Both the position numbers and the translations under genes were made by a program. A stretch of DNA of 64,000 nt from Thermaerobacter marianensis DSM 12885 (GTDB lineage Bacteria > Bacillota > Sulfobacillia > Thermaerobacterales > Thermaerobacteraceae), in assembly GCF_000184705.1 (NCBI RefSeq), contig NC_014831.1:930001-994000 (forward strand). The letters are read 5' to 3'. The notes under the pieces were generated by a model that saw only the letters and a list, made by a program, of their open reading frames with translations, was not told where the DNA came from and did not search any database. The number at the start of each line of letters is the position of its first letter. Position 1 is the first letter of the stretch. Of the stretch, positions 30,625-36,636 are shown piece after piece.

Positions 30625-31164
30625 TTACCATTGGGAGTGGGCCTCCAGGGCGGTCAGCTCCGTGGCGAACCGCCGCGCGTTCTCCCGGTACCGTGCCGCC
30701 GCGGCGCGGATCTCGGCCTGTTCCTCCGGCGTCAGGGCCCGCACCACCCGGGCCGGAACCCCCAGCACCAGGCTCCCCGGCGGGATCACCTTCCCCTCGG
30801 GCACCACGGCGCCGGCGCCCACCAGGCTGCCCCGGCCGATGCGGGCGCGGCTCAGCACCACGGCCCCCATGCCGATCAGGCACTCGTCCTCGATGGTACA
30901 GCCGTGGACGATGGCTCCGTGGCCGATGGTCACGTCGCGGCCGATCCAGCAGGGTTCCCCGGCGTTGACGTGGAGCACCGCGTTGTCCTGCACGTTGCTG
31001 CCGGCGCCGATGCGGATCTCGTCCAGGTCGCCGCGCAGGACGGCGCCGAACCAGATGCTGCTGTGTTCGTCCAGGACCACCCGCCCGACGACCCGCGCCC
31101 CCGGGGCCACGTAGGCGGTCGGGGCGATGCGGGGCGTGGCCGCGCCAAGACGGTAGAGGCTCAT
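30625..31164 (-). CDS. Gamma-class carbonic anhydrase family protein
   Basis: A 179-residue left-handed beta-helix protein with hexapeptide repeats. Zinc-ligand histidines are in place: H65 (NAVLH), H82 and H87 (GHGAIVHG), as in gamma carbonic anhydrases and the YrdA/PaaY group. The C-terminus is the usual helical tail. It could interconvert CO2 and bicarbonate, though many homologues have weak or unknown activity; the distant dabAB genes in this window make an inorganic-carbon role of some interest. ATG 31164 follows GAGGAGGAAT. Confidence 0.9.
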   Translation of the reverse strand: MSLYRLGAATPRIAPTAYVAPGARVVGRVVLDEHSSIWFGAVLRGDLDEIRIGAGSNVQDNAVLHVNAGEPCWIGRDVTIGHGAIVHGCTIEDECLIGMGAVVLSRARIGRGSLVGAGAVVPEGKVIPPGSLVLGVPARVVRALTPEEQAEIRAAAARYRENARRFATELTALEAHSQW

Positions 31165-31192
31165 GGGGATTCCTCCTCGTCCCTGGGCATCC

Positions 31193-31222
31193 TTGGAGAC
31201 GCCGCCGGCAATTCGCTACAAT
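31193..31222 (+). promoter_or_regulatory. Candidate promoter of the GNAT gene
   Basis: TTGGAG (31193-31198), an 18-base spacer and TACAAT (31217-31222). The -10 is good and the -35 only partly matches. It lies about 70 bases upstream of the GTG start. Confidence 0.45.
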
Positions 31223-31294
31223 CGTAGCGTGCCGTGGCGCCCGGGTGCACGCGCCGGCCCGGGTCGCCCGGCCGGGAAGGGGTGGGGTGGAGCC

Positions 31295-31771
31295 GTGTGG
31301 AGCGTGGAGCCCGCCGCGCCTGCCGACGCGGGCGAGGTCCTGGCGGTGACGCAAAGGGCATTCCGTCCTTACCAGGCCAAGTATCCCGTGGCACCGGAAC
31401 CGCTGCAGGACACGCTGGAGCGGGTGCGGGAGGACATCGACCGCGGACGGGTCTGGGTCGCCCGCAGCGGCTCCCGGGTGATCGGCGCCGTGCGGGTGCG
31501 GCCCCTGGGCGACCGGAACGGTGCATGGGAGATCTACGGCCTGGCGGTGGACCCCGAGTTCTCCCAGCTCGACGTGGGGACCTCCCTGGTGCGGGCGGTG
31601 GAAGACCGGCTGCGCCGGCAGGGGGCGCGGGCCCTGCACTTGCAGACGGGCCTGCGGGACGCCCCCGCCATCGAGTTCTGGTACCGGGTGGGGTATCGCC
31701 CCTACCGGCTGGAGCCCGACCCCGACCCGGCGGGCGGGTACGACCGGGTATGGTTCTCTAAGGAATGGTAG
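31295..31771 (+). CDS. GNAT-family N-acetyltransferase
   Basis: A 158-residue acetyl-CoA-dependent acyltransferase. The GNAT pattern is clear: strand VIGAVRVRP, strand WEIYGLAVDPEF, the acetyl-CoA loop region QLDVGTSLVRAVEDR and a C-terminal FWYRVGYRPYRLE. The loop lacks the full Q/RxxGxG/A spacing, giving QLDVGTS. GTG 31295 has only a GGTGGGGTGG ribosome site. The acceptor is unknown. It precedes selD in the same direction with a 145-base gap. Confidence 0.85.
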   Translation: MWSVEPAAPADAGEVLAVTQRAFRPYQAKYPVAPEPLQDTLERVREDIDRGRVWVARSGSRVIGAVRVRPLGDRNGAWEIYGLAVDPEFSQLDVGTSLVRAVEDRLRRQGARALHLQTGLRDAPAIEFWYRVGYRPYRLEPDPDPAGGYDRVWFSKEW

Positions 31772-31916
31772 GGTGGAGCCGGAGGCGCCGCCGGGGGATC
31801 GCGGTCCCGATGAGGCCGGTGGAACGGCGTGGCCGCACGGCGGCGCGCCCCGGCGCCGCCACGCCGCAGGTTGCAGGCTCGTCGCAGGCCTTGGATGACA
31901 GGGAGGGGGGATCGTC

Positions 31917-32966
31917 GTGGATGGGCTGCGCCTGACGCAGTTGACCGGCAAGGCCGGCTGAGGGTGCAAGCTCGGCCCGGCCGAGCTGGCGCAGGTCCTG
32001 CGCCACGTACCCCCTCAAACAGGTACGGATCCCCACCTGCTGGTGGGGCTCGAGAGCGGCGACGACGCCGGGGTCTACCGGCTGACGGACCGGCTGGCCC
32101 TGGTGCAGACCGTGGACTTCTTCACGCCCATCGTGGACGACCCGGCGCTGTTCGGCGAGATCGCCGCCGCCAACGCCCTGAGCGACGTCTACGCCATGGG
32201 CGGGCGCCCGCTGACGGCGCTGAACCTGGTGGGCTTCTCCGTCGCCCGCTACGGCGCCGATACCCTGGCGGCCATCCTGGCCGGCGGGGCGGCCAAGGTG
32301 CGGGAGGCGGGGGCGGTGATCGTCGGCGGGCACACCATCGACGACGCCGAGCCCAAGTACGGCCTGGCGGTGACGGGCGTGGTCGACCCCGACCGGATCT
32401 GGACGAACCGGGGCGCCCGGCCGGGTGACAGGCTGATCCTGACGAAGCCCATCGGCACCGGCGTGCTGAGCACCGCCCTCAAGCGCGACCTGGCGCCGCC
32501 GGAGGCGGTGCAGGCCATGGTGGAGATGATGCGGACCCTGAACCGGGCCGCCGCCGAGGCGGGTCAGGCGGTGGGCGGGGTCCATGCCGCCACCGACGTG
32601 ACGGGCTTCGGGCTCGTGGGGCATGCCAGCCACATCGCCCGGGAGAGCGGGGTGGCCCTGGTCATCGAGGCCGAGGCGGTGCCGGTGCTGCCCGGCGCCC
32701 GGGAACTGGCGGAGAAGGACGTCTTCCCCGGCGGCAGCCGGGCCAACCGCCGGCACTACGGCGCGGTGGTGGACTTCCGCCGGCCGCTGCCGGAATGGGA
32801 GCAGGGGCTACTGTTCGACGCGGTGACCTCGGGCGGCCTCTTGCTGGTGGTGGAACCGGCCCGCGCCGGGGCCTTGCTGGATGAACTGCACGGGCGCGGG
32901 GTACATGACGCGCGGGTCATCGGCCGGGTGGAGGAAGGGCCGGCGGGCCGGGTGCGGGTGGAGTGA
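31917..32966 (+). CDS. selD: Selenide, water dikinase, selenocysteine-containing (in-frame TGA)
   Basis: SelD makes selenophosphate from selenide and ATP for selenocysteine and selenouridine synthesis. Reading from GTG 31917 (GGGAGGGGGG six bases upstream) gives RLTQLTGKAG, then TGA at 31959-31961, then GCKLGP; the family has Cys or Sec exactly there, followed by G-C-K with the essential lysine. The TGA is therefore read as Sec15. A perfect hairpin begins seven bases after it. Downstream, GLESGDDAGVY, VDFFTPIVDDP, AANALSDVYAMGG and ATDVTGFGLVGH are canonical. Product 349 residues. Standard gene calling would wrongly start at GTG 32043. It implies selA, selB and selC elsewhere in the genome. 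Confidence 0.93.
31969..31987 (+). promoter_or_regulatory. Candidate bacterial SECIS hairpin in selD
   Basis: AGCTCGGC (31969-31976) and GCCGAGCT (31980-31987) are perfect complements around the loop CCG, starting seven bases after the TGA codon. Bacterial SECIS elements lie in this position and bind SelB. Loop size is small compared with E. coli fdhF. Confidence 0.6.
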
Positions 32967-35265: not shown

Positions 35266-35294
35266 TTGACGCCCTTCCGGCCCCCCTCTACAAT
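35266..35294 (+). promoter_or_regulatory. Near-consensus sigma-A promoter of the imuB operon
   Basis: TTGACG (35266-35271), a 17-base spacer and TACAAT (35289-35294). Transcription is expected near 35301, only about 4 bases before ATG 35305. Confidence 0.75.
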
Positions 35295-35304
35295 GGGTCT
35301 CACC

Positions 35305-36636
35305 ATGGGGAACAGATGTTCGGTATCGAGGCCGCCCCTGGCCTTCGTACGGCTTGAGGGCGCGTGGGTGACGGCCGCCGGCGTGGGCGATCGGCCGGCG
35401 GTGGTGGCCGACGGCCCGGTGGTGGCCGACGTGTCCCCGGCCGCCCGGGCAGCCGGGCTGCGCCCGGGCATGCGGGTGCAGGGGGCGCGGCGGCTGCTTC
35501 CCGGCCTGGCGGTGGTGCCGCGGGATGAGATCGACCCCCTGGCGGCCCTCGAGCCCCTGTACGAAGCGCTGCTGGGCGTCTCGCCGCGGGTCGAACCGGC
35601 GGTGGACCGCATGGCGGCCTTCTGCGAGCTGGACGCTCGCCAGACCGTGGACGGCGTGGTGGCCGTCCTGCAGGCAGCGGGCCTTGCGCGTTACGGCGAC
35701 CGGCTGGTGCTGGGAATCGGTCAGGGCCGTCTGGTCGCGCGTATGGCGGCCCGGGTGGCGGCGCGGTCGCGGGCGGCTGCTGCCCGGGGGCGGGGCGGCG
35801 CCGGGCGCGGTGGCACCGGGCGAAGCGCCGCCGGACCGGAGACGGCGGGGCGGCGTTCCGGCAGGGGTGCCGATGCGGAGACGGACGCCGGAAGGTCCCT
35901 GGCGGTGGTGAGCTGCCGGGTTCCTCCCGGCCAGGAGGCCGCCTTCCTGGCGCCGATGCCCGTGGCGGCCCTGCAGGAGGAGGTGGCGCCGGCGGCACGC
36001 CGCCAGCTGCAGCGCCTGGGGCTGATGACCCTGGGCGACGTGGCCGCGGCGCCGCGCCAGGTGGTCGCCCGGGCCGTGGGGGATCTGGCCCCCCTCCTCC
36101 AGGCCTGGTGCCGCGGGGACGACCGCCGTCCCCTGGTGCCGGGCTTCCCGCCGCCGGGCGTCACCGCCGTCCTGGCGGCACCGCCGGAGCTGGCCGACGA
36201 CCTGCGGGCGGGCTGGTGGTCGGCGCAGCTGCCCCGCCTGGCCCAGGAGGTGGCGGCCCGCCTGGCCGCTGCGGGGCGGGCCGGACGGCTGGCGGTCCTG
36301 CAAGGAGAGCGGGCCCGGGCCAGCCGGCACCTGCCCGCGGCCGTGGCCGGCGCGGATGTACTCACCCGCGCGGCCCTGGACCTGTACCGCCGCCTCTTGC
36401 GGGACGAACCGGCCCCGGCCCGCCTAGCGCTGACGGTGACCGCCCTGGAGCCGGCCGTCCGCCAGCTCTCCCTGGCGGACCCGGTCCAGGAAGACCGGCC
36501 GGTTCTGCTGGACGAGCTGGCGCGCCGCTATCCGGGGCGGATCTTCTGGGGCCGGGAGCGCCCCGTCTCGCGGCGGGAGCGCCAGCTCGCCTACTGGGAT
36601 CCCTGGCGTGGGGCGCCTGGCGGGGCGGGGCCTTGA
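35305..36636 (+). CDS. ImuB-like Y-family DNA polymerase homologue, predicted inactive
   Basis: A 443-residue relative of DinB/ImuB. The Y-family framework is visible (PPLAFVRLEG at the N-terminus, GLRPGMRVQGARRLLPGLAVVP, VSPRVEPAVD), but the first catalytic Asp of the DxDxFFA motif is absent and the SxDE motif is replaced by DRM. ImuB proteins act as non-catalytic adaptors that bring DnaE2 to stalled forks. QLSLAD at residues 387-392 resembles a beta-clamp-binding motif. ATG 35305 was chosen because it is the first in-frame start after the predicted transcription start; it would be nearly leaderless. A Gly/Arg/Ala-rich insert lies at about residues 155-195. Confidence 0.85.
   Translation: MGNRCSVSRPPLAFVRLEGAWVTAAGVGDRPAVVADGPVVADVSPAARAAGLRPGMRVQGARRLLPGLAVVPRDEIDPLAALEPLYEALLGVSPRVEPAVDRMAAFCELDARQTVDGVVAVLQAAGLARYGDRLVLGIGQGRLVARMAARVAARSRAAAARGRGGAGRGGTGRSAAGPETAGRRSGRGADAETDAGRSLAVVSCRVPPGQEAAFLAPMPVAALQEEVAPAARRQLQRLGLMTLGDVAAAPRQVVARAVGDLAPLLQAWCRGDDRRPLVPGFPPPGVTAVLAAPPELADDLRAGWWSAQLPRLAQEVAARLAAAGRAGRLAVLQGERARASRHLPAAVAGADVLTRAALDLYRRLLRDEPAPARLALTVTALEPAVRQLSLADPVQEDRPVLLDELARRYPGRIFWGRERPVSRRERQLAYWDPWRGAPGGAGP
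35310..35321. promoter_or_regulatory. LexA (DinR)-type SOS box
   Basis: GAACAGATGTTC is an exact GAAC-N4-GTTC palindrome just downstream of the predicted transcription start. Both boxes in the window share the pattern GAACA-N2-TGTTC. Confidence 0.75.

Follow-up and report, generated by a model that had tools for sequence, protein, structure and literature searches.

Sec-containing selenophosphate synthetase (SelD) is a textbook selenoprotein family whose genetic arrangement is well known in bacteria. Published surveys count SelD as one of the most widespread selenoproteins of bacteria (PMC1794560, PMC13188914), and the UxxK motif is listed for its Sec form in a 2026 review (PMC13188914). A second point of comparison is the SECIS element of E. 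coli fdhF (GGTTGCAGGTCTGCACC), a sequence confirmed in E. coli genomes. Here we describe the selD gene of Thermaerobacter marianensis DSM 12885, located in a window of 64,000 nucleotides (the whole stretch of DNA analysed) that corresponds to positions 930001-994000 of a genome consisting of a single 2,844,696-base contig. The gene almost certainly encodes a Sec-containing selenophosphate synthetase in which an in-frame UGA is decoded via SelB and a downstream hairpin, the likely core of which lies at 31988-32004.

The selD reading frame and its catalytic codon

selD occupies positions 31917-32966 of the forward strand, starts with GTG, carries a TGA at codon 15 (31959-31961) and ends with the TGA stop codon 32964-32966, giving a predicted Sec-containing selenide water dikinase of 349 amino acids. 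A purine-rich putative ribosome binding site, AGGGAGGGGG, is located on the same strand at about 31900-31909, about 8-11 bases before GTG 31917. Reading through the in-frame TGA yields VDGLRLTQLTGKAG-U-GCKLGPAELAQVLRH, i.e., ...U-GCKLGP..., and places U15-G-C-K18, the UxxK motif of the catalytic loop in the form U-GC-K, in register across 85 aligned homologues. The start, TGA, end and restored SelD N-terminus had been proposed in an earlier reading of the sequence alone, together with a ribosome site upstream, and the coordinates, the translation and the purine-rich element all agree with it. That reading had also anticipated that automated annotation would drop 42 residues. The longest table-11 ORF at selD is indeed a frame of 307 amino acids from GTG 32043, so plain ORF calling loses 42 residues and leaves SelD without its active site; the gene model is corrected here.

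In a profile search, the 349-residue product matches TIGR00476 over residues 5-316 with 406.8 bits (cut-off 125); Pfam assigns AIRS and AIRS_C domains to it, and the structures closest to it are those of SelD (3u0o and 2yye). A GNAT acetyltransferase gene lies immediately upstream on the same strand (31163-31771). Further along the window, a frame at 35266-36636 weakly resembles part of DNA polymerase IV (56 bits at best, cut-off 389) and perhaps encodes a divergent Y-family protein.

Alignment of the 85 SelD homologues at the position of TGA 31959-31961 revealed TGA in 45 sequences, TGC in 35, TGT in 5 and no other codon, just as expected by the sequence-only reading, which held that the family has Cys or Sec exactly here. 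TGA stands at the catalytic codon in all five family genomes (T. marianensis and four others), whose SelD proteins are 78-100% identical. The Sec and Cys states are clustered on the SelD protein tree, with four changes sufficing. Judged from these comparisons, a TGA with conserved flanks at this position is far beyond chance.

Two hairpins behind the TGA

The TGA is followed by two adjacent hairpins on the forward strand. The first, H1 (31969-31987, AGCTCGGC-CCG-GCCGAGCT), begins seven bases past the TGA and consists of a perfect 8-bp stem with the loop CCG. The second, H2 (31988-32004, GGCGCAGGTCCTGCGCC), follows H1 directly and consists of the arms GGCGCAG and CTGCGCC around GTC, so that its apical loop, G-first, falls 34 bases past the UGA. 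The minimum-energy fold contains both hairpins (z = -3.0).

Cys-SelD genes, which encode a near-identical peptide, served as the control for SECIS hairpins. By this comparison, in which kinship among the SelD sequences inflates the Sec-versus-Cys counts for both hairpins, at least six of the seven H2 pairs are present in 20 of 45 Sec genes versus 1 of 40 Cys genes, and H2 is found in 13 of 14 Sec genes versus 1 of 35 Cys genes when genes are matched for the surrounding motif (p = 7e-10; the sequences are related and the counts not independent). Both-sided (compensatory) changes occur at four of the seven H2 pairs, with 90.7% of cells paired; one covarying pair appears as G-C, A-U, U-A and C-G, and another as G-C and A-U. 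RNAalifold returned a weak fold for the mixed homologue set, confined to H2, and an Rfam search gave nothing relevant. For T. marianensis alone, 7% of synonymous draws produce H2 by chance and 0.3% produce the two hairpins together. H2 provides the SECIS-like conserved hairpin soon after the UGA by which a selenoprotein gene is recognized.

The corresponding values for H1 are a mean of 4.7 of 8 pairs in Sec versus 5.9 of 8 in Cys homologues and, among motif-matched genes, at least seven pairs in 5 of 14 Sec versus 10 of 35 Cys genes (p = 0.73); all eight pairs arise in 4% of random synonymous recodings of the same peptide. Since H2 tracks the Sec/Cys distinction and H1 does not, and since H2 shows compensatory changes and likeness to the fdhF element, H2 is likely the SECIS core and the target of SelB, while H1 would for the most part reflect the codons needed for KLGPAEL and serve at most as an accessory spacer. 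The SECIS assignment is in this way moved from H1, where the sequence-only reading had put it, to H2, which that reading had overlooked: the perfect 8-bp stem seven bases after the TGA stands as described, but its SECIS role is probably wrong, Cys genes being paired there at least equally well.

Where Sec-SelD genes lack H2, as is the case chiefly in Chloroflexota and delta-proteobacterial lineages, many form a hairpin of 5 bp instead, its loop lying at +17 to +21; it is present in 15 of 25 such genes versus 3 of 40 Cys genes. Because this hairpin tracks Sec in genes without H2, the SelD family, as far as the aligned sequences indicate, seems to use two SECIS positions, an arrangement for which a literature search, not conducted in depth, found no description. 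In this comparison of homologue loci L019-L106, the position near +34 seems to be that of Bacillota and relatives.

The same shifted hairpin of other clades lends some weight to the alternative that the SECIS is H1 itself, or H1 and H2 as one element in which H1 stacks to bring H2 nearer the UGA. The H1 loop lies 16-18 bases past the UGA, the minimum-energy fold joins both hairpins with a closing stem, and the perfect 8-bp stem recurs in all five Thermaerobacter-family genomes and at homologue locus L058, where it includes a compensatory change. We nevertheless consider this alternative unlikely, as the loop CCG has no G at either of its first two positions, Cys genes form H1 as often as Sec genes do, and H1 is largely broken in those Bacillales Sec-SelD genes that retain H2.

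Sec machinery and selenium use in the genome

A genome search found SelA, SelB and tRNA-Sec, all three of which had been predicted from the selD sequence. SelA is full-length (TIGR00474, 571.8 bits; Pfam SelA), SelB is encoded as one 737-residue frame with a GTPase domain, a beta-barrel and two winged-helix domains, and tRNA-Sec matches RF01852 with 82.8 bits and is assigned the anticodon TCA by ARAGORN. The genes selA, selB, selC and selD are mutually unlinked in the genome. The tRNA-Sec gene follows, at a distance of about 200 bases and in the same orientation, the gene for a Bcp-like peroxiredoxin of the Cys type (L110:7137-7823).

A true stop or a sequencing error at the TGA, with a working protein made from GTG 32043 or the gene dead, is extremely improbable. 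The shorter frame is what plain ORF calling yields, but this form would have neither the catalytic Sec nor the catalytic Lys, a complete Sec system is encoded in the genome, and the TGA recurs in five family genomes and 45 homologues between flanks that are open and conserved on both sides. Its presence across the family genomes, together with the restriction of the 85 homologues to Sec and Cys codons, therefore excludes a sequencing error or dead gene, including an error for TGC or TGT, one of the two flaws that the sequence-only reading had named as fatal to its proposal. Recoding of the TGA to another amino acid, e.g., Trp, found no support and has next to no probability, since tRNA-Trp carries the anticodon CCA, TCA belongs to tRNA-Sec, and selD's own stop is TGA. 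Decoding as Sec remains the preferred reading, and the frame, the codon conservation, the machinery genes and the hairpin conservation with covariation on which it rests are established at the sequence level.

The same early reading had predicted other selenoproteins in this genome. A genome search with an H2 covariance model recovered selD (E = 2e-7) but no other credible gene, the weaker matches having no convincing in-frame TGA in an open-flanked gene; one of these, at -20 (L113), was taken to be an ABC-transporter gene read in the wrong frame. The genome has no match to the selenouridine marker MnmH/YbbB (TIGR03167) or to the Se-cofactor marker YqeB (TIGR03309), GRDB is absent from it, and neither MsrA nor glutathione peroxidase was found in it. 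The sole formate-dehydrogenase-like gene (FdhA match) has no TGA and is not a Sec form because Cys stands in RICHAPS; this Cys-form molybdoenzyme (L107) adjoins an apparent FdhD-like gene. The peroxiredoxin just before tRNA-Sec likewise has Cys, and no TGA is present in the genes for a CMD protein, six AhpC-TSA proteins, thioredoxin and an IscA-like protein. Neither the tested families nor the SECIS model nor the selenouridine and Se-cofactor markers bore the prediction out; it is not refuted, since the families compared are a minority of the more than 100 known (PMC13188914).

SelD may be the only selenoprotein of T. marianensis. We regard as rather improbable, however, the full picture of an aerobic thermophile with SelD as its sole selenoprotein and no selenouridine or Se-cofactor markers, in which SelA, SelB, tRNA-Sec and SelD would make up a closed loop with no detectable product other than SelD. 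Species with SelD as their sole selenoprotein are on record among those having YbbB (PMC1794560), from which T. marianensis differs in that YbbB was not found; selenium is not mentioned in the T. marianensis 7p75 genome paper (PMC3035304). Were SelD truly the sole selenoprotein, with selenouridine and Se-cofactor use both lacking, the question would arise why the whole Sec system is kept.

Proposed mechanism and comparison with known systems

In the mechanism we propose, translation of selD would begin at GTG 31917, and SelB with GTP and Sec-tRNA-Sec would bind the hairpin behind UGA 31959-31961 (predicted core 31988-32004), resulting in insertion of Sec in place of termination. By family assignment, SelD would make selenophosphate from selenide and ATP with the Sec and Lys of its flexible N-terminal loop (UxxK), and SelA, again judging from its family, would use this selenophosphate to make Sec-tRNA-Sec. 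Since SelA needs selenophosphate for Sec-tRNA-Sec and SelD contains Sec, SelD would depend on its own product. By analogy, the proposed mechanism is ordinary for Sec-decoding bacteria.

The stem of H2 resembles that of the E. coli fdhF SECIS, both with the core GCAGGTC(C)TGC, and both loops are G-first. In fdhF, however, the loop lies about 19-21 bases past the UGA, as opposed to 34 in T. marianensis, and no 8-bp hairpin precedes it, whereas in T. marianensis H1 sits between the UGA and H2; this greater distance counts against the proposed role of H2. Cys-SelD, as in E. coli and Paenibacillus, is the same enzyme (the Paenibacillus homologues are about 52-58% identical), but its codon is TGC or TGT and the hairpin corresponding to 31988-32004 is not formed. 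The closest match is Sec-SelD (TIGR00476, UxxK), with the same UGA-Sec catalytic position followed by an RNA hairpin and with SelA, SelB and tRNA-Sec in the genome; nothing essential differs, the likely T. marianensis SECIS core being rather distant from the UGA (loop +34).
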